From positions 1 to 23,723 of the IMG/VR virus record IMGVR_UViG_3300042328_000146: a DNA stretch of 23,723 nt; one strand, written 5' to 3'. How positions within the stretch are numbered: the stretch's first letter is position 1; every line of letters starts with the position of its first letter. This DNA comes from a virus. The notes below the pieces were generated by a model. It made no database searches. It was given only the letters and a program-made list of their open reading frames with translations, and was not told the origin of the DNA. Positions 190-18,361 of the stretch are shown here, one piece after another. The position numbers and the translations under genes were made by a program.

Positions 190-320
190 TTCCCGAAAGC
201 ACTCGTCTCTTTATTAATCATATTTCTTTTCCCGCATAGAATGCAGAACAACTCTACGTGTAGTTTTTGTGAGAATACTCTGTCTACAAAAACCCTACCA
301 CCACATTTTCCGCACCACAT
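135..320 (-). CDS. Small zinc-ribbon protein
   Basis: This 61-residue protein has two knuckles, C3-G-K-C6 and C26-I-L-C29, separated by 19 residues. That is the pattern of a zinc ribbon holding one zinc ion. The second half is basic and lacks other recognisable motifs. Its ATG overlaps the TAA of the phosphoesterase gene by one base (TAATG), so the two are probably translationally coupled. Small zinc ribbons of this kind are common in phage genomes and usually have no assigned function; nucleic-acid or protein binding is likely but unproven. The 3' end overlaps the next gene (ATG at 189) by 55 bases. The cysteine pattern and the coupled start both argue that the gene is real. Confidence 0.7.
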   Translation of the reverse strand: MWCGKCGGRVFVDRVFSQKLHVELFCILCGKRNMINKETSAFGKWLEKRETLNAKNYGISS

Positions 321-1120
321 TATAGTGTAATCAGCTTTCCGTCAACAACACATGAATAGTCTGGAGCAACATGTATCATGTTAATATGTGGATAATCATT
401 AACTATATGTGCTACGGCAAATCCTTTTTGCCAGTCGTGGTGCTGCATGTACTTCATTCCTGGACCCTTTTCATCACACATATGTCCTAGTTCGTAGCCT
501 CGAAGTGTTTCACCTTCTCCGCCGTTTCTTAACTCATAAGTAACTAGGTGTGATGCAATTCTGTGTGAGTGACCTCTAATTAAAGATACCTGTAGGTCTT
601 CCATGTCCTTGCGAACGGAACCAGTTGCTGCAATTGATAGTCCGTGGTGCACATGGATATCTCCGAATCGGCGCTTAGGTAGTTCGTTATAGTGAATATA
701 TTCATAGCCTAAAGAATCTAATCCCCAAAGGGCTTCTGGAGTAACCTCATTAATATAATCAGGAAGCTTTGCATCTATATAGTTAAAAATTCTAACATCG
801 TGGTTTCCTAGTGCTGAAAATAGTTGCGCTTCTGGCAACATCTCTCTTGTCTTAGTATAAAAATCTCTTGCACCTTTTGCTTCATGGCGCATCATTGGAA
901 CAATAAGATCTCGACTGTCAGTCTTATGAAGGTTCAAGAACTCTGCTGAGCGTCCTTCTGTGTACTTGCTATAGCATGCTTGATCATCTGTATCACCGAG
1001 GTAGTCAACAACGTCAGGCTTAAACCACTTCATTACCTTAAACCAAAGGGCAATCATCTTGTCATCTTGATACGGGAATTGCTGGTCGGATGAGATCATC
1101 CATTTTAAATCGTTACTCAT
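320..1120 (-). CDS. Calcineurin-like metallophosphoesterase
   Basis: A 266-residue protein with the ordered motifs of the calcineurin-like (MPE) superfamily: S11-D12-Q13-Q14 in the DxH position, G42-D43-T44-D45-D46, G105-N106-H107-D108, H158-H159-G160 and G183-H184-S185-H186-R187. These residues normally bind two divalent metal ions and hydrolyse phosphodiester or phosphomonoester bonds. The usual histidine of the first motif is glutamine (Q14), a variation I associate with some phage MPEs. The substrate cannot be told from sequence; phage members act on nucleic acids or nucleotides. AAGG lies six bases before the ATG. The gene is separated from the tail genes by a promoter, inverted repeat and hairpin, so it starts a new transcription unit with the zinc-ribbon and basic protein genes. 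Its role is more likely host takeover or nucleic-acid metabolism than virion structure. Confidence 0.88.
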   Translation of the reverse strand: MSNDLKWMISSDQQFPYQDDKMIALWFKVMKWFKPDVVDYLGDTDDQACYSKYTEGRSAEFLNLHKTDSRDLIVPMMRHEAKGARDFYTKTREMLPEAQLFSALGNHDVRIFNYIDAKLPDYINEVTPEALWGLDSLGYEYIHYNELPKRRFGDIHVHHGLSIAATGSVRKDMEDLQVSLIRGHSHRIASHLVTYELRNGGEGETLRGYELGHMCDEKGPGMKYMQHHDWQKGFAVAHIVNDYPHINMIHVAPDYSCVVDGKLITL

Positions 1121-1206: not shown

Positions 1207-1650
1207 TTATGCTTCGACTGCGAAGCAATCAAACTCAATATCTGCATCAGTTTGTGCTGTACCGCCTGGGCCTCTTACTTTGAAGGTCATGCTTGTAGTA
1301 CTAACATTTGTAATGATGGTTGTAAAATTAAGTTGAGAAGCTTTTAATGAGGCAGAGCTTCTGGCCTGAACCCAGCATCTGGGCGGGTTAGTAAATCCTG
1401 CTTTTGAAAAGTCCCAGGTTGCTCCTGATCCTCCAGCAGTTTTTGCTTTTATTTTAACTAATTTTGTTGTGCTATAAATAGTTTGAGATACTGCATCTTT
1501 GCCGTCCTTGCCGCCTGTCTGAGTTAAGTTTAAATTAAACTTAGCTGCAGTTGCTTTGTTTAATTCATTTAGATCTAATATAATATTATTGATAATATCA
1601 TAAGTTACTGGATCTCCAGAATTAACATTAGTTGATTTTAAAATTGCCAT
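1207..1650 (-). CDS. Small tail or fibre-associated protein with a glycine-rich hinge
   Basis: A 147-residue protein. The N-terminal third is probably helical (YDIINNIILDLNELNKATAAKF). It is followed by a short glycine hinge (TGGKDGKDA) resembling the collagen-like or trimerising linkers of tail fibres. A beta-rich C-terminal domain ends in an acidic strand. This helical stalk, hinge and beta head is the usual plan of small trimeric fibre or spike subunits, so a role at the tail tip is likely, though I do not recognise the family. AAAGGGG precedes the ATG, and the gene starts three bases after the stop of the 52-residue coiled-coil gene. It is the last gene before the promoter/terminator region at 1135-1202. 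Confidence 0.6.
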   Translation of the reverse strand: MAILKSTNVNSGDPVTYDIINNIILDLNELNKATAAKFNLNLTQTGGKDGKDAVSQTIYSTTKLVKIKAKTAGGSGATWDFSKAGFTNPPRCWVQARSSASLKASQLNFTTIITNVSTTSMTFKVRGPGGTAQTDADIEFDCFAVEA

Positions 1651-1653
1651 ATC

Positions 1654-1812
1654 TTACCCCTTTGGTTGTTCCAATGGAACTTCCTGTGATTTATTTTTAT
1701 CAGTCAGCTCTGTAATTTCAGCACGAAGAATTGCTATATGCGTCTCATATTGTGAGACTATCTCACCGATACGCTGTTGCAATGCTTGAACTACTAGTTC
1801 TACTTTTTCCAT
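1654..1812 (-). CDS. Small coiled-coil protein, 52 residues
   Basis: An ATG at 1812-1810 overlaps the TAA of the large fibre gene by one base (TAATG) and opens a frame of 52 codons ending in TAA at 1656-1654. The protein begins MEKVELVVQALQQRIGEI. Hydrophobic residues continue in heptad-like spacing through HIAILRAEITELT, which suggests a coiled coil. The tail is polar and ends EQPKG. Its end contributes to the AAAGGGG ribosome site of the next gene, so the pair looks coupled. The function is unknown. Oligomerisation with the coiled-coil end of the neighbouring fibre, or use as a small fibre chaperone, is possible but inferred. The short length makes it easy to miss in automated annotation. 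Confidence 0.7.
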   Translation of the reverse strand: MEKVELVVQALQQRIGEIVSQYETHIAILRAEITELTDKNKSQEVPLEQPKG

Positions 1813-4800
1813 TATATACCCTTCAGTATGTTTATTTCTTGTTGTAATGATTCTACCATATCCGATAGTTCTTGTACAGCCTTTGTTAAAGGCGCTACAA
1901 ATTGCTCGTATCTTAGACTTTGTATTGCTTCTGGATCCTCAATATTATCTGATACCCAGCCGCCAAAATCTTCGACTTCAAGCTCATCTAGTACTTGCTT
2001 TACTTCTTGAGCTAGAAAACCAGCGTGTCTTCTTTTTCCTGGAACAGATACTGTTTCATATATGTCGTTTCCTTCTTCATCTTGCCCACTAATTTTTTGG
2101 GTTTTTACGATATCTATTTTTTCAACTGATACGCTATCTATGCCTATGTGCTTTACTTCTTTATCTACAAGAACTGGTTCTTTAGACCCTTCTATCCACC
2201 TGTATGTAACTGGACGTAGTTTATTTATAAAGTTTAGTCCTAGCTCTGAATCAGAAATATCAGTTTTTAATCTACTGTCAGATGTTGTAATTGTTGAATT
2301 ATTTGAATAAATCTGTCTCCATCTTTTATTTTGCTGGATTCCAGTGCTTGATAAAGACCAGCCTCCGAGGTCATAAGTGTTGTCAGATCTTGGAGCCCAG
2401 TGACTATATACACCAAAACCTCCTGAAAGGGCATATCCATTCAGAAAGGCATCGCCATTTTGTTCAATTTTATAAGTTGTTCCGTTAGCAAAATATACGT
2501 CATCTTCCATATATAACCTATACCAAGAATATTGAGTGCTTCCTAAAGAAAATAGACCTTCGGTCCATGGGTAGCAAGTACTTGTCCAGCCAGAGTCATC
2601 CGTAGATCTGAATCCTAAAGCCTTTACTACAAGACTTGTTACTCCTATTCCATTTACTGATTTAGTTCCTGCTGTATCTATGTATCCTGTGTCATTGTTT
2701 ACAAATAATCTTCCCGTAAATGATCCAGTAGCTGCACTTAATGCTCCATAGAATGTAGCATCTCCTTGGTTTGTTATAGTAAAAGTAGGGCTTCCGTTTT
2801 TATAGCCTAAAATTCCTTCAGATGTTATTTTAACACCGCTACTTGCAGTTGAGGTTGATCCAGCATAGACCTCAAAGCCTGTGGCGTCAGCAGAAATTTT
2901 ATTATTTACTGAATTCTGTACAATATATGCAGTTGCGCTTAATTTAGAATTTAAAGATACTTTTGTAGCAAAAGATGTATCTCTTCGACTTGTCCAAGAA
3001 CTACCAGTCCAAGTTTTTAATTCATTATCTGCTGATGTGTCTATCCACAGGTCTCCTATTCTATTAGCAGTTGGTTCGGCAGCTGAAACAAATGTTGTAT
3101 TTTTTGTTGCCAAGTTCGTACTCAATGTAGCTGCTGATACATAATCTCCTTCAACACTTACGAGTCTACTGTTAATACCACCTGTAACCGTTTTTAAGGT
3201 ATATAGATCTAGGCTTCCAGTTGTAGCGTAACCCTCAATTGTTGATCCTGCTCCAAGACCCAGGACTGCTCCTTCAGCATACAGAATACCTTCTTTTGAA
3301 ACTCTAAACTTAGCAGTTGAAGAGCTGTTGCTTCCAACCCACAATCTAAAATCATCGGTTGCGCTAAGTCTGACTATTGGATAGATTGATCCTACTTGAT
3401 TTCCTAGCGTGATGTTTCCATCATTTTCAATTTTAGTATTGCTTGATGAGAATCCTGTTGTTGCAAGTGTCCATCCGCCAACTGTACCTAAATTGGCATT
3501 TAATCTACCTGTTGATTGAACTAAAGAAAATGTTTGACCCGTTGCATTGTCCGTGCTTGTAGCATCATATGCAAATATACCCTCGCTACTAAATCTTACT
3601 CTTGCCCCCGATGTTGGATTAGCGCCTGCAAAAAGAGTACCACTTGTAGTTGCCCCAGCTGGGATCGCTAGCTGGACATTACCTGTAAACTTGCCTCCTG
3701 TAGCATTTACATTTCCAGTTAGATATAGGTTTGTTCCATTCCAGTACATAAACTCTGTTGGGTTTCCAACTCTAAACTGACCAGTGGTAAGCCAAAAGTT
3801 ATTACCTACGTTGGTAGTTGATTTATTTAATATAATTCCATGATAGGTTCCCGCAGTTAATGTTGGGCTTACAAGCGGATCTGTATTTAAATTAATACTT
3901 TGAGATATGCCTGTTCCTATTTTAAATAGATCTTGCGATGCCCCACCTATTGCTATAAAAGATTTAAGTCTTGCTAATGCACCTGCCGCTGTTCCATCTG
4001 CATCTGAAGCAATAAATGTTCCACTTGCGGCACCTGTCCAACTTACCACATCGTATGGTGTTGTTGATGCAACTTGATAATAATATGTTGTGTTTGGAAT
4101 TAATCCTGTTGCGGTAAAAGAGGTTGTTGTTATTCCGCTTACTGATGCGTATTCCCATAAAGGGTTTGTTACTGTTGATGGATTATCTGTTGACCATCTT
4201 ATTGCATATCCCGCCGTTTTAACATTTGTAGATTGCGCCCAGCTAATTGTTGAAACAAGACTAAATCCGCTTAAATCTTTAGGATCAATAGAAGCGGATG
4301 CAGAAGAACTAGCTGGGTTTTCAACAGTATATGTTGTATCAACATCTGCACTAAAAGGTGTTACTGGTCCAGCAGTGGCTTCTGATATATTTAAATCATC
4401 CCATTTATCTCTGGATCTAACCTTCACCCATCTTGGCGCAAAGGCGTTTGGCCCTGTTGTAAGAATTGAAACGTTAGTAGATGTTCCTGTATAAACAATA
4501 GTTTGTGTAGCAAAATTACTGGTAAGGCTTTCAAATATAACAACATCTTCTTGTTCACTTAAAGGGTCAAGATCAAACTTAACTCCGTAAGATTGTGATC
4601 CTGGAGTTAATGTTAAATTTTTTACAGCCTTAGTTAAATTTGGAATAGTAAAAGTTTCTTTCCAAACTGGGGACCTATCACTTTCTTTTATTTCTTTTGT
4701 CTCTGGGTCTTCGTGTAAATATGTAAAGAAGAATTTGTATTGTTTATTTTTTATAAGAGGAAGCTTTATTTTTTTTGTGTAAGAGTCTTTTGAGCCTACG

Positions 4801-4886
4801 GCAGCAGAGGCAGCAGCTGCTGCAGGTGTTATTTCTAAATCAGGTGGTAATCTATAACCAACTTCATCTCTATCGTAAGCACCCAT
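1812..4886 (-). CDS. Tail fibre with Fn3-like domains and C-terminal S74 intramolecular chaperone
   Basis: A 1024-residue modular fibre. Residues about 1-180 contain two beta-sandwich segments resembling fibronectin type III repeats. A clearer Fn3 domain lies at about 200-292 (ISWAQ, then LIPNTTYYYQV). The middle, about 300-860, is a long beta-rich, Gly/Ser/Thr-rich shaft with fibre motifs such as GGWTL and repeated EGI(L/F) turns. The C-terminus is a Peptidase_S74 domain: S869-D870-S871-R872-L873-K874, later GFLAQEV, and a final coiled coil (VQELSDMVESLQQEINILKGI region). In this family the domain helps the fibre trimerise and then cuts itself off at the conserved serine, using a Ser/Lys pair. 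Its ATG overlaps the stop of the previous fibre gene by one base. Host-surface recognition is the expected role. Confidence 0.88.
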   Translation of the reverse strand: MGAYDRDEVGYRLPPDLEITPAAAAASAAVGSKDSYTKKIKLPLIKNKQYKFFFTYLHEDPETKEIKESDRSPVWKETFTIPNLTKAVKNLTLTPGSQSYGVKFDLDPLSEQEDVVIFESLTSNFATQTIVYTGTSTNVSILTTGPNAFAPRWVKVRSRDKWDDLNISEATAGPVTPFSADVDTTYTVENPASSSASASIDPKDLSGFSLVSTISWAQSTNVKTAGYAIRWSTDNPSTVTNPLWEYASVSGITTTSFTATGLIPNTTYYYQVASTTPYDVVSWTGAASGTFIASDADGTAAGALARLKSFIAIGGASQDLFKIGTGISQSINLNTDPLVSPTLTAGTYHGIILNKSTTNVGNNFWLTTGQFRVGNPTEFMYWNGTNLYLTGNVNATGGKFTGNVQLAIPAGATTSGTLFAGANPTSGARVRFSSEGIFAYDATSTDNATGQTFSLVQSTGRLNANLGTVGGWTLATTGFSSSNTKIENDGNITLGNQVGSIYPIVRLSATDDFRLWVGSNSSSTAKFRVSKEGILYAEGAVLGLGAGSTIEGYATTGSLDLYTLKTVTGGINSRLVSVEGDYVSAATLSTNLATKNTTFVSAAEPTANRIGDLWIDTSADNELKTWTGSSWTSRRDTSFATKVSLNSKLSATAYIVQNSVNNKISADATGFEVYAGSTSTASSGVKITSEGILGYKNGSPTFTITNQGDATFYGALSAATGSFTGRLFVNNDTGYIDTAGTKSVNGIGVTSLVVKALGFRSTDDSGWTSTCYPWTEGLFSLGSTQYSWYRLYMEDDVYFANGTTYKIEQNGDAFLNGYALSGGFGVYSHWAPRSDNTYDLGGWSLSSTGIQQNKRWRQIYSNNSTITTSDSRLKTDISDSELGLNFINKLRPVTYRWIEGSKEPVLVDKEVKHIGIDSVSVEKIDIVKTQKISGQDEEGNDIYETVSVPGKRRHAGFLAQEVKQVLDELEVEDFGGWVSDNIEDPEAIQSLRYEQFVAPLTKAVQELSDMVESLQQEINILKGI

Positions 4887-9603: not shown

Positions 9604-10070
9604 TATACCTCTTCTAAGGAGAGGGAGACGTCCCAAAATTCTTGTGGGACGGAAGCTGAAGAAGACTTAACGTTTCTTTTCATAACTGTAAAATTACATG
9701 AGGTAAATGACATTAAAATAATTTCATCTCTAGCCGCTACTGCGTTGTATGATATCTTTACCTTAAAGGTGCCCTTGCCTTTATTTAAATAGAAAGATTT
9801 AATTTCCGAAGCGCCCATTCCGCCGTCCACTGTCATTGTACTATCAGTTGGCAGCATTCCCCAGCTTGCGCTAAATTGCTTCTTATCTGCAATCCAAATT
9901 TTTCTAAGTGAGCCGTTAGACATTCTTTGGGTCTTCTCTATTCTATCTATGTCTAGAGAGGCGCTAGATCTGTTGTGCTCAGAGACCTTTGTCCATGTTG
10001 GGTTTACAGGGTCAGTTCCTGTATCAAAATATAATAGGGAACCTACTGGGAGTGTCATTGGATAACTCAT
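9603..10070 (-). CDS. Minor tail protein, tail-tube-like fold candidate
   Basis: A 155-residue, mostly beta protein ending FWDVSLSLEEV, a pattern common at the end of tail-tube-fold and distal-tail proteins. Strands such as FKVKISYNAVA and DEIILMSFTSCNFTVMKR are visible; there is no signal peptide or membrane segment. It sits exactly between the tape measure and the hub, where siphoviruses usually encode the distal tail (Dit) protein or an equivalent ring. It overlaps the tape measure stop by four bases (ATGA) and the hub start by one. At 155 residues it is shorter than a typical Dit, so a simplified tube-like ring protein is the best guess. Confidence 0.6.
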   Translation of the reverse strand: MSYPMTLPVGSLLYFDTGTDPVNPTWTKVSEHNRSSASLDIDRIEKTQRMSNGSLRKIWIADKKQFSASWGMLPTDSTMTVDGGMGASEIKSFYLNKGKGTFKVKISYNAVAARDEIILMSFTSCNFTVMKRNVKSSSASVPQEFWDVSLSLEEV

Positions 10071-13000
10071 GTGTTTTTAATACCTACATTCATTGGGTTG
10101 CCCTTCATTTTAGCATTAGTTTTTATATTGGCCTGCAAGAACTCATAGGCTGCAACCTTTGCCTTACTTATTAGCTGATCTTCATTCATTCCTGGGGAGG
10201 CATAAATATTTTGTGTATAATTAATTACACCTTGTCCTACTCCTGAATCACGCATTGGTTCAAACATCTTTGATGCTTGCTTAACATCATATCTAGGAGA
10301 GGCATATGGGACCTTAGCCATATTAGGAATAATCATTCCGCCAAATGCCATTTCTGGTCCACGGTCTCCAACAATAGTAGGGACCTGTGGATTAAGTTTC
10401 ATTGTTCCATATCCAGCTTTTACTGGTTGAACACTAAGCTGCCCAGATCTTCCTGCATCAGAAGTTACTTTCCACTTCTTTCCATTTTTATCTGCAAATT
10501 CAACCCCAACCCATGTAGAACCTCGTCCAGTAGATATTTCAGAAGCACCTGCTGCTATTAATGAAGATGGGTGAATTAAAGTAGATCCTGCGTATGCGCC
10601 AGCGCTTGGCCCTAGTGTTGTGGGAACAAATCCAATCTTAGCTGTTGCCTTTGATGGACTAACGTCCATCGTCTTGCCATTAATAATAATGTCCCCGCTG
10701 CCCATTTGAATACCCTTTGAGGATAATCCTTTTGTAATAGCTCCTTCTACCCCGCCCATTATTCCTAGGGCCTGGGTGCCTACATCAATTGGAGTTTTAA
10801 CACCCTTTGGATGAGTTGGTTGTTTAAATTCAGGAACTGTTCCAGGCTTTGCTGTTCTTACTGCTCCAACAAGGCCTGCAGCATCCACTTTACCAGCATT
10901 TTTGTCTTCATCAGTTCCAAACTTAATATAATCCTCTATACTTTTTCCTGCAGCAGCTGCATTTAGTGCTAGGGTGACCATTGCTTGATTAACATCATCA
11001 ATCTTTTGTTTTTGCTTATCAATCCTTGCATTTAATGAGCCCAATTTTTCTGCTGCAAGACTTGCATTATCACTAAGCTTTTGCTGGCCATCGTTAATTA
11101 GTTTTATCTTAGCTTCTAGCGGAGCATTGGCTAGCTTAAGAGCATCTTCAATTGCTTTCTTTTGAGAGTTATACTGTTGATCTGATTGCAGACCTTGAAT
11201 ATCTAAGCTTGCTTGTTGTGCTGCAGCAGTATTGCCTGTTGCCAAAGCTGCTTCGTATGCTGCTTGTGCTTTTGCAATTTGTCTTGCAATATCGCCTTCT
11301 TGCTTTGCCGCATCAAGAGCTTTTAGTCTTGCCTCTGCAAGTTTATTGTTAGCATCTATTTGCTTCTGCAAACCCTTTAGTTGTTCTCTAGTATTTATTT
11401 GTTGCTGAGCAGTTTGTCCCTTGGCCGCTTGCATTAATGCCTTTTGTTGATCTGTTAGCTTTTTTAAATCTATGTACTGTTGTTTTAATAGACCCTCTTT
11501 GTTCGCAGCAACGGTTGCTTCTGATATGGCATCTGCAACTTTTGATAGTGTAGATACAGCCTCAGCGCCTAACTTTGAAAGATCTCCAGTAAATCCCTTT
11601 GCTGCAAGATTCATCTTTTCAAATAGGCTAACTACTGTATCCATAGGATTAATAATCTTTTTAAGTTCTGGACTCTGCTTAATCATTTCCGCTCTAGTTT
11701 TTGCAGTAAGAACAGCCTTAGAAGATTCTAGCTTATTTAGTTTTTGAAGCATTGCCTCTTGGGCTTGATACTGAGTTAATACTTTTGTATTTCCACTCTT
11801 GTCTTCTCTAGCAGCTTTTTTACTTTGCTCAATCATGTCTATAATTCCAGCATCTATTGCGGTTAGGCCTGTATTTACTGCTTGTGCTCCTTCACGTCCG
11901 CCTTCTGCTGAAGCAGGAACATAATTGTTTATTGCAGCAACAGCTGCATCTTGTCCTGTCTTGATATTTCTAAATGCACGATTACCTACAGTAAATGCGC
12001 CAGCCTTTTCTCCCTTTTCAGAAAGCTTAAACATTGCAAATATTTTCTTGCTTGCGTCATCTGCTGACATTCCAGCAGCCATCAGCGCAGTCTTAATGTC
12101 TATAGCTACTTGTGGAAGCTCGCTTTCTTTAGACTGATTAATTAATTTAATTTGATCGGTATAGACCTCTTTGACTTCTTTCTTAAGCTTCTTGTACTCT
12201 TCAATTGTCATGGATATAGGAAGGCCAGCATCTTGCATGCTTTCATAAAGGAACTGATTTCTTTCTCTTATTGCTTCTATGTTCTTAACAGTATCTGCAA
12301 GCTTTGAGTTGTAATCGGTAAACTTAAGTCCCGCCTTTTTGGCAGCTTCTTCTGTTAGTCCGTATTGTGTTACCCCAACTCTTAAATGTTCGTTGTGATC
12401 TCTTATTCTTTTATTAATAACAATAAAAGCTCCTGTTGCTACAGCAAGTCCTACATTTAATCTTGTAAGACCCATTCCAATTCTTCCCAGGGTTCTTGTT
12501 ACTGCGCTCCCACTCTTGGCAGAATTCTGAAGAGCTGCGCCGTATCTATTGAGCATTCTTCCGCCCTTAGCGTATGTTCCATCTTCCAACATTTCTCCAG
12601 CAACTTTTGTTCCTCTTGCTGTAGAGAAGATAGGAGTTTTTGCAGAAGCTGGAATCTTAGACATAAGTCCACCGACTCTTCCTTGTGCGCCTTCAGCCTT
12701 TGTCTGCATCATTGCCGTCATCATCATTTGAGGTATGATAAATGAAAGCGTCTGCATTATTGTTTGAAGTAAAGGATTGGCAATCTTACTAGAAATTAGC
12801 ATTGGCACTAGCGAGGCTCCAAGCATTGCAATGTTTCCGCCCTTCATGTATCCGTTTTTAACACTGCCTCCATTCATGTAACCATTTGGAACAATGCCTC
12901 CTGAATTTCTAGGTACAAATAGTTCTGGTCCTTTTTCTCCCACAACGTATGGTTGACCTGCGTTAACTGGTCCGCCCATTTCTCTTTTTTCTAAACCAAA

Positions 13001-16000
13001 TATAATTTTCTTTAAAGATTCTGTAAGCGGAGTATCTTTTTTAGAATCCCAATTTAAATATTTGTTTCGCAAAATATCTTTATCAATTGGAGAAAGTTGT
13101 TTAATTATGTTTCTGTCTCCAACAAGATCTGAAGCGGCTGATCTTATTACAGAGTCTAGTACATCTGGCTCAAGTGCATTCTTTAATGACCCCTTAGCAT
13201 CTTTAACATACCCGTAAGGCTTTTCTTTTGCTAATGCTGCCGCAAACTTATCATAGAATAATTTTTGAGTGTGCTTTCTTAAACCTGTGTTTGCAAATAG
13301 TTTATCGGCCATTTCAATAGAAAGAGAATTAACTCCCCATGGAGCTGACTCATACATACTTGGCTTAGGTGCTCCAGTTGGGCCAAATCCTGCACCAATT
13401 CTATGCATTGCCTTACCCTTAAGAACGTTTCCAATTAATCCGCCAATATTAAATCCATTTTCTGGTGTCTTAAATGCATTATCAGATAGGCTTACAGAGT
13501 GACCTTTTTGTCTGCGCTTCAATTCATCTGCTGCAAGCATTTTAGCAATTGCTGCTGGAGTCATTGTTTTTTCTGGAGACATCGTTACTGATGAATGAAT
13601 TCCATGCAAATCTTGATATGTCTTTCTTCTTGCATCAGAAAGTCTTGTAATCATTGCATTGTAAATAACTTTTTCTTCTGTGTTTAAATCAAATCTACTT
13701 ATTGTTTGTTTTAACTTTGGAAGAGCTGATTCAATTTCTTGCAGCATGCGATCATTATATTGATCAGGTGTCATACCTCTTGGAATATCTGAAGTCGCTT
13801 CAGCAAAGAATTTTTTTGTGTTACTTCCCTTTACCCCAAGCAAGTTGATCATTGCTTGTTGTTTAAATGAAGGCATTGTTGCAGAGTAGTCTCTTGGTCC
13901 AGAAGCTGTTGCAAATACACCAGCTGGTCCTACATCGGCAAGTATGTTTCCAGAAAGGTTTCCTCTTCCTAAATCTTTGTCACCACGCAATGATGATGCA
14001 ACCAGCTGTCTAAAGTATTGATCTACTGTAAATTTACCGTCTTGGTTTGCTATATCAGGATTATATTTAGACTCTAAGGCTAGTAGAGTTCTAGATCCTC
14101 TTCTGTCAGTTGGGTCTCTCATTACAACAACTCTTTGATTAGGTGTTTGCAATCCATGGACGTCACGAGCAATTTCAGTTGCTCTTATCTCAGCAAGCGC
14201 TGCTTTTTCATCTAGGACTGGCTTAACAAAAACCTTTTCCCCGTTCTTGCTATAAACCCCACCGATTCCAGATACTGGGAAACTTCTTCCTGATGTTGGC
14301 TCTAGTAGTTCGTCATAATCAGTTACTGGGGTCTTGCTAAATCTAGAGTCTTTAACTGCTTGACTTGCTTTTTCCATAGCAACCTTTGCGGCTCTCTGGG
14401 CTTCAACCTGCTTAATAGATCTTGGCATTCCTAAGAACAACGCTTTACCGCCGCCAAATAATCTTTGTGCAAACTTACCAGGAATTTCTCCTCCTGAATT
14501 TGCTGAAATTGGTTCCTGTAAAGGTAAACGCTTTCCTCTTGTAAGAAGAAGACGCATCATTGCTGTCATCATATGACCTTTTTGAATTGCTGGAAGCCTT
14601 TTCATAAGTTGTGAAGCTTTTCCATATTTTAATTCTTTTGCTAGCTGGTCAGCTGTATATTGTGCAGTTGATTGATTTAATGGAACTCTATCCTGGAACT
14701 TGCCTCGTGTCATTTGGCGTAGCCAGTTTGTAAATTCATTTATAGTTCTAGTGCCCGCTTGTGCATTGTATGCATTGCCTGTGGTTCTATTACTTTTTAC
14801 AACACCATTTTCTCTTGTAAATAAATCTCTGTCTGGGTCCATGTGTTCTGATGCATAATCAAACGTTCCATCAGCTCTTACAAAACCATTCATTACCTTC
14901 TGCAAATTAACTTGGTCTATATCCATTCTTGACATTAATTTTTCTACTAATGCTCTTGTTGGTTTGATTGCAGGTATTTGAGGTCTACTGCCTCTATCTA
15001 ATTCTCCTGGCCTATCCTGGCGAAGTATATCTCTATAATTAACCTTTTCACCCTTACTGTTTGTTCTTCCAAGGCCCTGCATATCAATATAATCTTGCAT
15101 TGCTCTTGCCTGCATAATTCTTATTTGCTTATACTTTGCTCTATTTACTTTTCCAGTTTTAGGATCGGTAGACTTTAAAATTGCTTCTTCAAAATCTCTT
15201 TTTGCCATGTTTATTGATTCATCTTCAGAAAATCCTAGATGGTTTAAAACTGCTGAATCATGCAACACAACTCTATTTTTTACAGAGGCATCGTAATTTG
15301 GATCAGTATTTCTTGCAAGCCAATCTTTTAACCCATTAAACATATTCATGGAAAGCTCTCCGCCAAATGCTCTTCCCATTCCCGATGTATTACCTGGTCC
15401 GCCATTTAATTGAAGCATTAAACCTGGATCACGTTGAGCAATTTCTGCTGGGATAACAGCCTCTCCAGGAGTTAGTACAACTGGCACCTCACCTCCAGAA
15501 TTTCTAAATGTTGGAGTGCCACCAATCAGCTTACTAATAATAGGCATATTTTCTTGTGTAGATTTTTTATTAATAACAAATGAACCAGCTTCTGCTGTTG
15601 TATGATATGTGTCTGTGTTACCAGTTCCTGGAACTATTCCGCCTTTATTAAACTTAGGCTTTGTTGTTTCAATGTTATATCCTGCACCTGAAGTTCTAAC
15701 TCCGCCTAGCGCTCTAGCAATTTTATCTACTAATGTTTTTGTAGAACCCTTGTGGAACATTTCTTTCATGTTTGATTTGCCAGTTACTGGATCTACTACG
15801 GGCTGAGATGTTAATGGAACTGTTGTTAAGTTTACAGATCTTCCTTGTCCAGCTGCAATCTTTTGAGCTGTCTCAGCAAGCATTGCTTCAACTGTTGCAT
15901 TTAATTGAATTACTTTTATTCTTGCTTCGTCTGCTGTTATTTTGCTTTGCTGTAGCTGCTTAACAATTAAAGCCGTTTCTTGTGCAGCCATGCTTGTAAT

Positions 16001-18361
16001 TTCTGAAAATTCTGGAAGCAAGGCTTGATAAGAATCAGACAAGCTTGATGTAATTGTTCCAGTTGCCATTACTTCTGTTTTTAATAATTTAATTTCTGCC
16101 TCTGACTGCATTGCTATTGCTGCTGTCATTGCATGCCACTTTGCTGCCTCTTGAGCAACTATACCAGTCGATGTTCCGTTTACAGATGTAACACCTGGAA
16201 TCTTTGGAAGATCTGCGTTCATATAGGCTTGAGGGTTTTTGCCAATTCTAACGTTTACTGGTCCTGCTCCTGGAACTGTTCCAAATATTGTCCCCATCTG
16301 TTGTGTTTGAGCAGGAATCATGTGAGACATATCTCTTGAGTATGAATCTCCAACTAATGGATTATTTTTATCAACATATCTTGGCGTTCCGCCTGGAGTT
16401 CCCGCTGCAATTACTCCTCCTGCAACTGTTGAGATGCTTGGTTGCACTGCAACTTGCGCTGTAGATGCTGCTACCTGAAGATTATCAAATGATGCTGCAA
16501 GAGTATTTACTGCATTTGTTAATACAACTGTTGCTTCTGTATCTGAATAGAATGATGTAGCAAGACCTTTTGCTGCTGCATCTGCCGCTAATATTTCTGG
16601 AGTAAGGAGCTTAAACCCATGTCCTCCTGTAGCCATTTGTCTTAAAGAGAATATTCCCTTTGTGACATAACCAATAAAGTTGGCCATTACACCAGTCAAC
16701 ATAATTAGTGGTCCAGCAAAAGCTGTTAGTCCACCAAGTGCATTTAAGAATGTTTTAACTGGGCCTGGAAGCCCTTGGAAAAACTTAATGATTCCATCTA
16801 CTACATTTAAAACCTTTGTGCTAATTCTTAAAAATTGTTCTCCTACTGAAGCAAGGTCTGCTTGGACTGAAGCCCATGCTCTTTTAAATTGTCCTGAAGC
16901 GGACTCTGTCATCATAGTTAATTCTCGAGCAGAGATATTTGCAAGATCTGTAGCGCTTGCTTTCATTAAATCCATTACCTGAAGAGTTTGAGATCCTTCT
17001 TTACCCAGGTTTTCAAATAGGGCTGACATTCTTGCATACTGGAACTTACCAAACAACTGTTCAATTGCTCTTGACTTGCTTAGGGGATCTAGTCTATCTA
17101 AAGCTGCCTGAAGGTCTGTAATTGTTTCAGTTAAATTTCCCGCATTAGATGTTACAATCTTATCTATATCTATACCAAAGCCGAAGAACATTTCTTTAGC
17201 AACCTTTGTTGGGTTGATAAGAGATGCCATTGCTGACTTAATTGCGTTAGCACCTTCTGATGCATTAACTCCGCCTTCTTTCATTGCAGTTAGATACAAT
17301 GCTAAATCTTTTACATCTCCACCTAGAGACTTTACAACTGGACCTGCTTTAGGAATTGCTTCAACTAAATCTTGAAGAGATGTAGAAGTCTGGTTTTCAA
17401 CAGCGTTAAGGAAGTCAATTGATTGTGTAAGTTCGTCAGTGCTTGACTTAAATGCATTTTGAATAGCAAGAGTTGCCTTCATTGCTTCTTGCCTGTCAAC
17501 TTCACCAAGGATTGAAAGTCTGCTTGTCTGTCTTGTAGCTTCTAAAAGGTTTCCGCCTTCTTGTCCTGTTGCAGCAAGGTCAGCTGCTAATGCGATAGTT
17601 TCTTTGTATGCAATTCCGTATGCTCCAGCAATTTCTCTTGCTGTTTCGGAAACATCTTTTCTTACTTTTGCTAGCTCTGAAGATGATGTTGCACTTAGTC
17701 CGCCGTAAACCTTTGTAAGTCTTACAAGCTCTTGATCTGCTTCTTTAAATGCTTTTTGTGCAGCCATTCCAAATGCTGCAAGAGGAACTGTTAATCCTAC
17801 TGTTAGCTGACGACCAGCCCACTGGGTATTCTTACCCCAATTGATAAGCTGATTAGATCCATCAAGCATTACCTTATTCATGATAGAAAGCTCTTGTCTT
17901 GCAATTGCCGTCTTGTTCTTTATTTCATCAAGGCCTTTTGCAACCATAACGTTGTACTGCATTAGGCCTTGTGCGTTTTTGCCAATAGGCTGAATGATTG
18001 CATTCTCTAGCATTACCTGTTGCTTAGCAAGGTCTCTAATTAGACTGCTTGTTTTCTTTGTATGCCCACTCCAGGCGTTGTAGTATTCTCCTAGCTTGAG
18101 TCTGCCTCTATCTAGGTTTTTACCAAATTTTTCTACGTCTGACGTAAGCGATACAAAGTGTGATGAAAACTGTCCTGTTGATCGCATAGTTTCTGCGAAG
18201 GACTTATTCATTACAGCAATTTGATTTGCTAGTTTGGCGTTAGTTCCCGCCGTTGTTTCTTGTAATTTTACGAGTTGGGCAGTAACCGCAGCAAGCTGAG
18301 TTCTTAAACTCGTGAAGTCTGCGTTGGCGGTAATATTGGTGGTGATTAAATTATCTGCCAT
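10067..18361 (-). CDS. Tape measure protein, very long, with internal folded inserts
   Basis: A 2764-residue protein. Residues about 1-600 match a TP901-type tape measure core: N-terminal helices, SNQLINWGKNTQWAGRQLTV, VGLTVPLAAFGMAA, then a hydrophobic stretch near 545-580 (LGGLTAFAGPLIMLTGVMAN). Residues 907-975 and 1795-1815 carry linker motifs typical of such proteins (GGIVPGTGNTD, GGEVPVVLTPGEAVIP, VVGEKGPELFVP), and a third VGDRGPEM copy lies at about 2664. A globular, charged region from about 980 to 1790 includes a kinase-like segment (listed separately). Hydrophobic helices follow near 1845-1900 and 1965-1990, then a long coiled coil at about 2280-2480. The protein sets tail length and is ejected with DNA. 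At the usual 1.5 angstrom per residue the tail would be near 400 nm, less if the inserts are folded. The start is nine bases after the chaperone stop, with only a weak AGAG upstream. Confidence 0.93.
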   Translation of the reverse strand: MADNLITTNITANADFTSLRTQLAAVTAQLVKLQETTAGTNAKLANQIAVMNKSFAETMRSTGQFSSHFVSLTSDVEKFGKNLDRGRLKLGEYYNAWSGHTKKTSSLIRDLAKQQVMLENAIIQPIGKNAQGLMQYNVMVAKGLDEIKNKTAIARQELSIMNKVMLDGSNQLINWGKNTQWAGRQLTVGLTVPLAAFGMAAQKAFKEADQELVRLTKVYGGLSATSSSELAKVRKDVSETAREIAGAYGIAYKETIALAADLAATGQEGGNLLEATRQTSRLSILGEVDRQEAMKATLAIQNAFKSSTDELTQSIDFLNAVENQTSTSLQDLVEAIPKAGPVVKSLGGDVKDLALYLTAMKEGGVNASEGANAIKSAMASLINPTKVAKEMFFGFGIDIDKIVTSNAGNLTETITDLQAALDRLDPLSKSRAIEQLFGKFQYARMSALFENLGKEGSQTLQVMDLMKASATDLANISARELTMMTESASGQFKRAWASVQADLASVGEQFLRISTKVLNVVDGIIKFFQGLPGPVKTFLNALGGLTAFAGPLIMLTGVMANFIGYVTKGIFSLRQMATGGHGFKLLTPEILAADAAAKGLATSFYSDTEATVVLTNAVNTLAASFDNLQVAASTAQVAVQPSISTVAGGVIAAGTPGGTPRYVDKNNPLVGDSYSRDMSHMIPAQTQQMGTIFGTVPGAGPVNVRIGKNPQAYMNADLPKIPGVTSVNGTSTGIVAQEAAKWHAMTAAIAMQSEAEIKLLKTEVMATGTITSSLSDSYQALLPEFSEITSMAAQETALIVKQLQQSKITADEARIKVIQLNATVEAMLAETAQKIAAGQGRSVNLTTVPLTSQPVVDPVTGKSNMKEMFHKGSTKTLVDKIARALGGVRTSGAGYNIETTKPKFNKGGIVPGTGNTDTYHTTAEAGSFVINKKSTQENMPIISKLIGGTPTFRNSGGEVPVVLTPGEAVIPAEIAQRDPGLMLQLNGGPGNTSGMGRAFGGELSMNMFNGLKDWLARNTDPNYDASVKNRVVLHDSAVLNHLGFSEDESINMAKRDFEEAILKSTDPKTGKVNRAKYKQIRIMQARAMQDYIDMQGLGRTNSKGEKVNYRDILRQDRPGELDRGSRPQIPAIKPTRALVEKLMSRMDIDQVNLQKVMNGFVRADGTFDYASEHMDPDRDLFTRENGVVKSNRTTGNAYNAQAGTRTINEFTNWLRQMTRGKFQDRVPLNQSTAQYTADQLAKELKYGKASQLMKRLPAIQKGHMMTAMMRLLLTRGKRLPLQEPISANSGGEIPGKFAQRLFGGGKALFLGMPRSIKQVEAQRAAKVAMEKASQAVKDSRFSKTPVTDYDELLEPTSGRSFPVSGIGGVYSKNGEKVFVKPVLDEKAALAEIRATEIARDVHGLQTPNQRVVVMRDPTDRRGSRTLLALESKYNPDIANQDGKFTVDQYFRQLVASSLRGDKDLGRGNLSGNILADVGPAGVFATASGPRDYSATMPSFKQQAMINLLGVKGSNTKKFFAEATSDIPRGMTPDQYNDRMLQEIESALPKLKQTISRFDLNTEEKVIYNAMITRLSDARRKTYQDLHGIHSSVTMSPEKTMTPAAIAKMLAADELKRRQKGHSVSLSDNAFKTPENGFNIGGLIGNVLKGKAMHRIGAGFGPTGAPKPSMYESAPWGVNSLSIEMADKLFANTGLRKHTQKLFYDKFAAALAKEKPYGYVKDAKGSLKNALEPDVLDSVIRSAASDLVGDRNIIKQLSPIDKDILRNKYLNWDSKKDTPLTESLKKIIFGLEKREMGGPVNAGQPYVVGEKGPELFVPRNSGGIVPNGYMNGGSVKNGYMKGGNIAMLGASLVPMLISSKIANPLLQTIMQTLSFIIPQMMMTAMMQTKAEGAQGRVGGLMSKIPASAKTPIFSTARGTKVAGEMLEDGTYAKGGRMLNRYGAALQNSAKSGSAVTRTLGRIGMGLTRLNVGLAVATGAFIVINKRIRDHNEHLRVGVTQYGLTEEAAKKAGLKFTDYNSKLADTVKNIEAIRERNQFLYESMQDAGLPISMTIEEYKKLKKEVKEVYTDQIKLINQSKESELPQVAIDIKTALMAAGMSADDASKKIFAMFKLSEKGEKAGAFTVGNRAFRNIKTGQDAAVAAINNYVPASAEGGREGAQAVNTGLTAIDAGIIDMIEQSKKAAREDKSGNTKVLTQYQAQEAMLQKLNKLESSKAVLTAKTRAEMIKQSPELKKIINPMDTVVSLFEKMNLAAKGFTGDLSKLGAEAVSTLSKVADAISEATVAANKEGLLKQQYIDLKKLTDQQKALMQAAKGQTAQQQINTREQLKGLQKQIDANNKLAEARLKALDAAKQEGDIARQIAKAQAAYEAALATGNTAAAQQASLDIQGLQSDQQYNSQKKAIEDALKLANAPLEAKIKLINDGQQKLSDNASLAAEKLGSLNARIDKQKQKIDDVNQAMVTLALNAAAAGKSIEDYIKFGTDEDKNAGKVDAAGLVGAVRTAKPGTVPEFKQPTHPKGVKTPIDVGTQALGIMGGVEGAITKGLSSKGIQMGSGDIIINGKTMDVSPSKATAKIGFVPTTLGPSAGAYAGSTLIHPSSLIAAGASEISTGRGSTWVGVEFADKNGKKWKVTSDAGRSGQLSVQPVKAGYGTMKLNPQVPTIVGDRGPEMAFGGMIIPNMAKVPYASPRYDVKQASKMFEPMRDSGVGQGVINYTQNIYASPGMNEDQLISKAKVAAYEFLQANIKTNAKMKGNPMNVGIKNT
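12843..12902 (-). repeat. Two imperfect 30-base tandem repeats inside the tape measure gene
   Basis: Units 12843-12872 and 12873-12902 agree at 24 of 30 positions. They encode successive ten-residue units, GGIVPNGYMN and GGSVKNGYMK, followed by a third GGN start. They lie in the glycine-rich linker between the folded insert and the hydrophobic helices of the tape measure. This in-frame tandem duplication looks like a flexible spacer. Confidence 0.75.
13500..14315 (-). other. Kinase-like folded segment embedded in the tape measure (about residues 1350-1620)
   Basis: Within the tape measure the residues follow the order expected of a HipA/PI3K-like kinase fold. There is a glycine-containing strand and lysine (GGVYSKNGEKVFVKP, K1380), a helix with glutamate (E1391 in LAEIRATEIAR), a hinge-like LLALES (E1430), a hydrophobic helix (YFRQLVASSL), then G1460-D1461-K1462-D1463-LGRG-N1468 and N1472-I-L-A-D1476. 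D1463 and N1468 have the D+5=N spacing of a catalytic loop; the second metal aspartate could be D1476 or D1491. Helices follow to about 1620. The reading is by eye with no alignment, so the fold is a hypothesis. If right, the domain could enter the host with the tape measure and act on a host target or nucleotide. Confidence 0.4.

Follow-up and report, generated by a model that had tools for sequence, protein, structure and literature searches.

For many tailed phages, the cargo that enters the cell besides the DNA is poorly known, and tape measure proteins are usually read as rulers and channels. What, then, is an enzyme-like domain doing in the middle of a tape measure protein? This question is raised by a stretch of 23,723 nucleotides from the virus record IMGVR_UViG_3300042328_000146 of IMG/VR, hereafter called the window, which belongs to an uncultivated phage and carries a block of tail genes on its minus strand. 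One gene of this block (10067 to 18361, minus strand) is an open frame of 2764 amino acids encoding the tape measure protein, and a cassette in its middle (residues about 1306 to 1634; 13460 to 14446, minus strand) resembles a kinase. On balance, we favour the view that this tape measure has an exchangeable effector bay, which follows a conserved N-terminal core and here delivers a kinase. The content of the bay is best read, according to its predicted structure, as an adenosine triphosphate (ATP)-dependent atypical kinase of the HipA/CotH/PI4K-like kind with its catalytic residues intact.

The carrier was identified by its conserved core and by its position. A PhageMin_Tail domain (PF10145, expectation value (E) 6.5e-27) occupies residues 239 to 438 (17048 to 17647, minus strand), the frame matches phrog_10030 with an E of 3.5e-116, and the gene lies between the tail tube and minor tail genes. 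The first 633 residues are 31-34% identical to tape measures of isolate phages, among the 25 listed of 474 records. Streptomyces phages Wofford and Bmoc, which belong to the Stanwilliamsviridae, possess a homologous N-terminal core and a similar gene order; unlike the protein studied here, however, their tape measures of 2084 and 2110 amino acids are without the kinase, for which an unfiltered profile search of them returned only negative-score noise.

The kinase fold proper lies at residues about 1342 to 1591 (13589 to 14338, minus strand) of an AlphaFold2 model, which is also the range of most structural matches. This model, built from an alignment of 21 sequences, has a mean predicted local distance difference test score (pLDDT) of 81.8 and a predicted template modelling score (pTM) of 0.80, and 1320 is to be added to its numbers to obtain those of the tape measure. 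In model numbers, the N-lobe consists of a strand at 48-52, a strand at 55-62 with K60, a helix at 65-82 with E71, and strands at 89-95 and 105-112, while the C-lobe consists of a helix at 126-139, a loop at 141-148 with D143 and N148, short strand pieces, D156-V-G and then helices; the helices following the N-lobe are those at 126-139, 179-188, 212-235, 241-257 and 263-270. The predicted architecture is therefore that of a two-lobed kinase, with an N-lobe sheet, helix C and a helical C-lobe.

A Foldseek search of the PDB with this model listed 50 rows, all of them kinases or kinase complexes by title, with CtkA as the best (E 1.2e-3) and the amicoumacin kinase AmiN among the matches. VIA-align placed CotH first (Z 11.8 over 213 residues, 3.9 A), followed by CtkA (10.9), MavQ (9.9), PI4KIIalpha (9.7), HipA (9.4) and HipT (9.1), and then, at Z of about 8-9, by PI3Ks, actin-fragmin kinase and entry 4kqa, which is titled golgi casein kinase (Z 8.4). 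All 50 rows listed by VIA-align are kinase-fold proteins, 46 of them by title, whereas LepB and three rows titled 'MDT protein' are such proteins although their titles do not say so. The note of the VIA-align library gives best Z values of 7-8 as frequent background, and both the CotH score and the uniform list of matches are above it. As well, three rows pass E 0.001 in a Foldseek search of viral structure models, the best of which bears only the name 'Transferase'. The preliminary description of this DNA had guessed by eye a HipA/PI3K-type kinase and named structure prediction as a way to check it; the fairly confident two-lobed model, with its matches to CotH, CtkA, PI4KIIalpha, HipA and PI3K, agrees with that guess, and the cassette almost certainly has a kinase fold as modelled. 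Similar to CotH and the kinases related to HipA, CtkA and PI4K (Z about 8 to 11.8), it presents K, E, D..N and D in this order. Unlike them, it has no sequence-family match, is fused inside a tape measure, and carries its DxG just 8 residues past N1468, leaving a very short hairpin.

The residues on which catalysis would depend are strongly conserved. Since several loci are pieces of shared contigs that overlap, distinct sequences were counted, and 126 of them were obtained from 277 open frames of other records, the record of the window itself being excluded; two loci share identical domain DNA. The following features all lie on the minus strand. A glycine-rich hairpin GIGG (residues 1365-1368; 14258 to 14269) precedes model strand 48-52, and its G1368 is invariant (126/126), as are the strand-3 lysine K1380 (14222 to 14224), D1463 and N1468 in the catalytic loop DKDLGRGN (D1461 to N1468; 13958 to 13981), and D1476 and G1478 of the D-V-G motif (13928 to 13936), which follows the model strand pieces 149-150 and 153-154. 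One exception each (125/126) was found for the helix-C glutamate E1391 (14189 to 14191), for E1430 of LLALES (14072 to 14074), which lies in the hinge region near the end of model strand 105-112, and for D1461. A strand-3 lysine, a helix-C glutamate, a D-x4-N loop and a metal aspartate are thus all present, with their roles assigned by order and by the model: D1463 is the likely catalytic aspartate and D1476 the likely equivalent of the DFG aspartate. D1461 was rejected as the catalytic base, being replaced by N in the divergent member L337, whereas D1463 never varies; D1491 (in RDYS) is kept in only 70 of the 126 sequences, and D1476 was therefore preferred as the metal aspartate.

The same four residues K1380, D1463, N1468 and D1476 are kept in 20/20 relatives that were recruited by the tape-measure N-terminus alone, including L337 and L326, both of which sit on very long branches. 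These 20 are free of bias towards a kinase pattern because no such pattern was used in finding them, and a chance resemblance to kinases is ruled out by the invariance of their catalytic residues. The ratio of nonsynonymous to synonymous substitution rates (dN/dS) is 0.049-0.153 against six relatives. Judged by sequence, invariance and dN/dS together are what an active enzyme under strong purifying selection would show, and the cassette is probably a catalytically active phosphotransferase. Related tape measures that keep the region and lose K1380, D1463 or N1468 had been named in the preliminary description as evidence against a kinase; no such loss is seen in any of the 126 domain-bearing sequences.

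The borders of the cassette were given by a relative that lacks it. The tape measure of locus L276 has no kinase and is 79% identical to that of the window over residues 1-1006 and 49% from residue 1616 on; at the slot it reads NSGGEISGKFAQRLF-NGSPTNQ-FGIGGLLGNVLKGKAM, as against NSGGEIPGKFAQRLF, 332 residues and NGFNIGGLIGNVLKGKAM in the window, which places the cassette at residues about 1306 to 1634. The left border is the upstream GG linker GGEIPGKFAQRLFGGG (residues 1290-1305; 14447 to 14494, minus strand), which L276 keeps as GGEISGKFAQRLF, and the right border is the downstream GG linker NGFNIGGLIGNVLKGKAMHRIGAG (residues 1635-1658; 13388 to 13459, minus strand), which begins with NGFNIGGLIG at residue 1635 and which L276 keeps as NQFGIGGLLGNVLKGKAMKRIGA. 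The two flanking linkers therefore adjoin in L276, and relatives cover the cassette between them. An insert bounded by GG linkers is what had been described earlier for 13500 to 14315, equal to residues 1350-1621, and it is confirmed by a relative without the domain that nevertheless retains both linkers; the lysine strand VFVKP (K1380), the glutamate helix (E1391) and the motifs LLALES, GDKDLGRGN and NILAD (D1476) also lie where they had been placed. A kinase-bearing tape measure, L269, is 88% identical to the kinase-less L276 over residues 1-998 and 70% past the slot.

The domain travels with the tape measure. Positives in the viral scans numbered 157, 314, 346 and at least 589, of which the best 80 were retained in each case, so that the frequencies given here describe near relatives rather than all phages; all relatives with the kinase domain came from IMG/VR. 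A tape-measure N-terminus is present in 270 of the 277 kinase-bearing frames, where the domain match starts at frame residue 408 to 1407, and among the remaining seven, six are truncated by contig ends, while that of L065 comes after a frame of 1263 codons and a frame break. No standalone copy of the domain was seen. Two pattern scans covering 84,980 prokaryote species gave 61 and 27 matching stretches in their genomes, none of them a relative, and plasmids gave one irrelevant weak match to the domain. The distant carriers L031, L102, L104, L108, L150 and L166 resemble the window mainly over roughly their first 600 residues, at 37-40% identity, and in the kinase domain (44-55%), and elsewhere only in short stretches. 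Besides, L014/L058, L071, L077 and L078 have frames exceeding 4,100 codons that combine a related N-terminus with the kinase, total length varying about twofold among relatives. The tape measure was found as two successive frames in L065 (5193, 8945), L284 (4984, 8524) and L335 (9551, 12585), and such splits could stem from faulty assembly, from programmed frameshifting or from an element lying between the frames.

The cassette is optional among near relatives. The N-terminal core fetched 80 relatives regardless of cargo (the best 80 of at least 589), of which 19 were too short past the N-terminus and were dropped. The 61 informative loci comprise 20 with the kinase, 11 with an ADP-ribosyltransferase-like domain and 30 in which neither was detected, while none has both. 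Nine of the 11 hold the second domain in one frame and two in split frames, the latter being L284 and L335, which carry it in the second frame and were counted by hand.

This second cassette was first recognised by eye in L271 and was then tested by fold. The L271 tape measure shares 74% identity with that of the window in residues 1-1095, has another domain in the slot and matches the window again from 1793 on. The cassette is exemplified by residues 1268-1517 of L298 (13352 to 14101 of that locus), in which R, S and ExE are kept. A scan for it yielded 57 loci, and 54 of the 57 frames have the tape-measure N-terminus and none the kinase; of the other three, two begin where their contig does and the third belongs to a split tape measure. 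Among 45 distinct sequences, R and S are kept in 45/45 and ExE in 44/45, the remaining one having a gap. The model of this cassette is weak (mean pLDDT 65.4), being poor over the first 70 residues and better over 71-245. The first ten Foldseek rows obtained with it are ADP-ribosyltransferases, with Vis as the best (E 2.2e-6); rows below rank 11 are unrelated folds with E of 0.39 or worse and were set aside. All 50 rows listed by VIA-align are ADP-ribosyltransferase entries, with Z from 9.4 to 8.0. The fold and the R - S - ExE triad together assign this cassette to the ADP-ribosyltransferase superfamily, and one slot therefore holds either of two host-modifying chemistries that are unrelated to each other. 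A search of isolate phages gave no copy of the second cassette, and Pfam and NCBIfam scans of the slots of 45 kinase-less tape measures revealed no convincing enzyme family. As a separate observation, the stretch adjoining the kinase (residues about 1660-1800, WGVNSLSIEMADKLFANTGLRKHTQKLFYDK...; 12962 to 13384, minus strand) is common to the kinase-less L276 and, by eye, L282, and was not seen in the L271 type; it is possibly another module.

Phylogenetic analysis points to movement of the cassettes between carriers. On the N-terminal tree, a 'quick' tree with long branches in which single joins are unsure, the three states need 15 changes and the kinase label seven, at least six of which are forced by well-supported branches, while the ADP-ribosyltransferase label shows no clear clustering (34 of 500 shuffles were as low). 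The kinase tree, also with long branches, rejects a distant group of tape measures as one clade (approximately unbiased (AU) test, p 0.0087; 0% of 200 bootstrap trees), this group having been predefined from the N-terminal tree and the set containing three long branches. The trees of kinase and tape measure are thus in conflict, which indicates that the cassette moves, and its exchange between carriers is most likely judging from the sequences. The locus has the properties of a polymorphic carrier, that is, a constant carrier whose enzyme modules are interchangeable at a fixed place and are exchanged independently of it.

Precedents exist for several parts of this arrangement. According to PMC10770324, phage P23-45 has a virion RNA polymerase fused to the tape measure, which acts at entry. 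Similar to the present case, this enzyme resides in a giant tape measure, its proposed place of work being the entry pore as infection begins, and related phages without the fusion exist; unlike it, the RNA polymerase is N-terminal, whereas the kinase and the ADP-ribosyltransferase-like domain occupy an internal exchangeable slot. Among the host modifiers that virions deliver, ADP-ribosyltransferases and kinases recur, and they are described as head-packaged, MuF-fused or polyvalent (PMC5512222, PMC9503650, PMC7824862, PMC7302621). Those of the polyvalent and T4 Alt type are predicted to modify host proteins early (PMC5512222, PMC9503650), as would the cassette, but the latter is carried by the tail tape measure. 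The polyvalent kinases, as outlined in PMC5512222, are of Ser/Thr/Tyr type without the C-terminal subdomain, whereas the cassette is HipA/CotH-like with a helical C-lobe, and helices do follow its N-lobe in the model. The MuF-VIP2 fusions of actinobacteriophages likewise contain an ADP-ribosyltransferase toxin domain in a predicted virion component that is absent in a near relative; their carrier, however, is the head protein MuF and not a tape measure (excerpts of PMC7302621). Tape-measure-related carriers with interchangeable functional domains are also effectors of actinobacterial contractile systems, such as those of the Sle1 type, although there the domains are C-terminal, the system is an intracellular contractile one and not a phage, and the portion of the source at hand describes no kinase or ADP-ribosyltransferase (PMC13277306).

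In the parts available of PMC8876498, PMC7354433, PMC6102473, PMC8616854 and PMC12846349, a named kinase, toxin domain or ADP-ribosyltransferase occurs outside the tape measure. In open-licence literature, judged mostly by title and abstract, neither a kinase nor an ADP-ribosyltransferase was recognised within the tape measure of a phage, which is no proof of absence. Virion-delivered host-modifying enzymes are known; in the present case, the kinase-fold cassette in a polymorphic tape-measure slot is real, conserved and mobile.

Given these precedents, delivery of the kinase with the tape measure would be the most economical reading by analogy. The kinase domain would travel inside the tail tube, probably in a threaded or partly unfolded state, exit along with the tape measure before the DNA or together with it, and refold on the cytoplasmic side, where ATP is available. 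There it might phosphorylate a host molecule, most likely a protein, and so aid take-over or blunt defence, comparable to the host modification by T4 Alt, an ADP-ribosyltransferase, and by the T7 kinase. That the cassette is a delivered effector acting in the host is, in our judgement, the somewhat favoured possibility, and its substrate is probably a protein rather than a lipid or a small molecule. The chances are evenly balanced for the widest version of this proposal, in which a large group of uncultivated tailed phages has an internal bay between GG linkers into which recombination places a kinase, an ADP-ribosyltransferase or nothing, and whose enzyme enters the bacterium through the tail as the first phage activity, before gene expression.

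A number of results weigh against an effector kinase delivered in this way. The kinase call depends on the model, VIA-align and motif conservation, for sequence-family and significant Foldseek matches are missing: no Pfam kinase family matches the cassette by sequence, profile search against the PDB gave no convincing solved structure, and no Foldseek match to the PDB passes E 0.001, the best being at the 1.2e-3 given above with low template modelling (TM) scores. Searches with residues 1321-1640 brought up neither a Pfam nor a PADLOC family; the sole PHROG matches were two, with E of 0.22 and 0.35. The profile searches against HipA, PI3/4-kinase and Fam20 families that had been proposed in the preliminary description thus failed to support it. 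HipA_C (PF07804) and CotH (PF08757) have no match in the record of the window, whereas 4/14 and 3/14 control genomes match, respectively, and PF00454 (PI3/PI4 kinase) has none in queries P0001 and P0002 at E up to 1. Among 18 members scanned with Pfam at E up to 10, where HMMER filters discard most matches above about 0.1, there are 0/18 matches each for HipA_C, CotH and PF00454, and Fam20 is absent from the 11 families matched. Rad51, lectin, protein kinase C fragments, Band_7 and similar weak names were partial matches and were set aside, the protein kinase C fragments presumably falling outside its kinase domain; no kinase candidate for the domain remained from Pfam, PHROG, PADLOC or PDB profiles. 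In addition, none of the isolate phages searched carries the domain, with three irrelevant weak matches in one search, and about half of the informative relatives (30/61) show neither enzyme. Window residues 1007-1254 are unaligned in L276, and the difference between the two is therefore not a single clean excision. A folded domain of 30 kDa is about as wide as the tail-tube lumen, and delivery therefore needs threading or refolding. Finally, CotH is a kinase of structural coat proteins, and an assembly role fits it equally well.

The last point leads to a morphogenetic kinase, which would act in the producing cell and phosphorylate tail or capsid proteins during assembly, much like CotH acting on spore-coat proteins. 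CotH is the best structural match and the domain is situated within a structural protein, yet the tape-measure core is kept regardless of cargo in the 30/61 near relatives with neither cassette and in the 11/61 with the ADP-ribosyltransferase-like one. An essential assembly step should not be exchangeable for another chemistry, which argues against such a role and makes this explanation quite unlikely. If the kinase-like fold were instead a pseudokinase or a mere structural spacer, that is, a globular module or a binding domain, the missing sequence-family match would be accounted for; spacers, however, do not retain catalytic residues, and K1380, D1463, N1468 and D1476 are invariant even in the divergent L337 and L326, so that this is very improbable.

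The chemistry and the site of action could also differ from those proposed. Kinase-fold AMPylators and glutamylases exist, and the nearest structures include the lipid kinases PI4KIIalpha, MavQ and PI3K together with AmiN, hence the domain might transfer AMP, glutamylate, or phosphorylate a lipid or small molecule. This seems unlikely, since K/E/D/N/D is the canonical phosphotransfer set and there is no sign of inverted nucleotide binding. A role at the envelope stage is unlikely too: the enzyme would act at the membrane during channel formation, on a lipid or an inner-membrane protein, rather than as a free cytoplasmic effector. The lipid-kinase matches would suit it, and a tape-fused enzyme is proposed to work attached to the pore (PMC10770324). 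The swap for an ADP-ribosyltransferase-like domain suggests general host-modifying functions instead, with which pore attachment is still compatible.

Should the effector bay hold, a swappable enzyme bay would make the tape measure a delivery platform. It would also explain part of the spread in frame length, about 2,040 to 4,270 codons for unsplit frames, which need not then reflect tail length. Moreover, the kinase and the ADP-ribosyltransferase-like domain in homologous carriers form a directly testable pair, and the bay would be a natural template for tail-delivered enzymes beside the head-packaged ones.

Other genes of the window were recorded in passing. A metallophosphoesterase (phrog_221; 320 to 1120, minus strand) is 40% identical to its counterpart in Wofford. 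It was considered as a partner of the kinase and rejected: it is present in 21/24 long records of the group, 7/8 with the kinase and 14/16 without, and is regarded as unrelated to the kinase because it is found alike in both. A tail spike-like protein (1812 to 4886, minus strand) possesses a C-terminal S74 endosialidase chaperone and an fn3 match below the cut-off, and the small protein encoded after it (1207 to 1650, minus strand) has an H-type lectin match, also below the cut-off.

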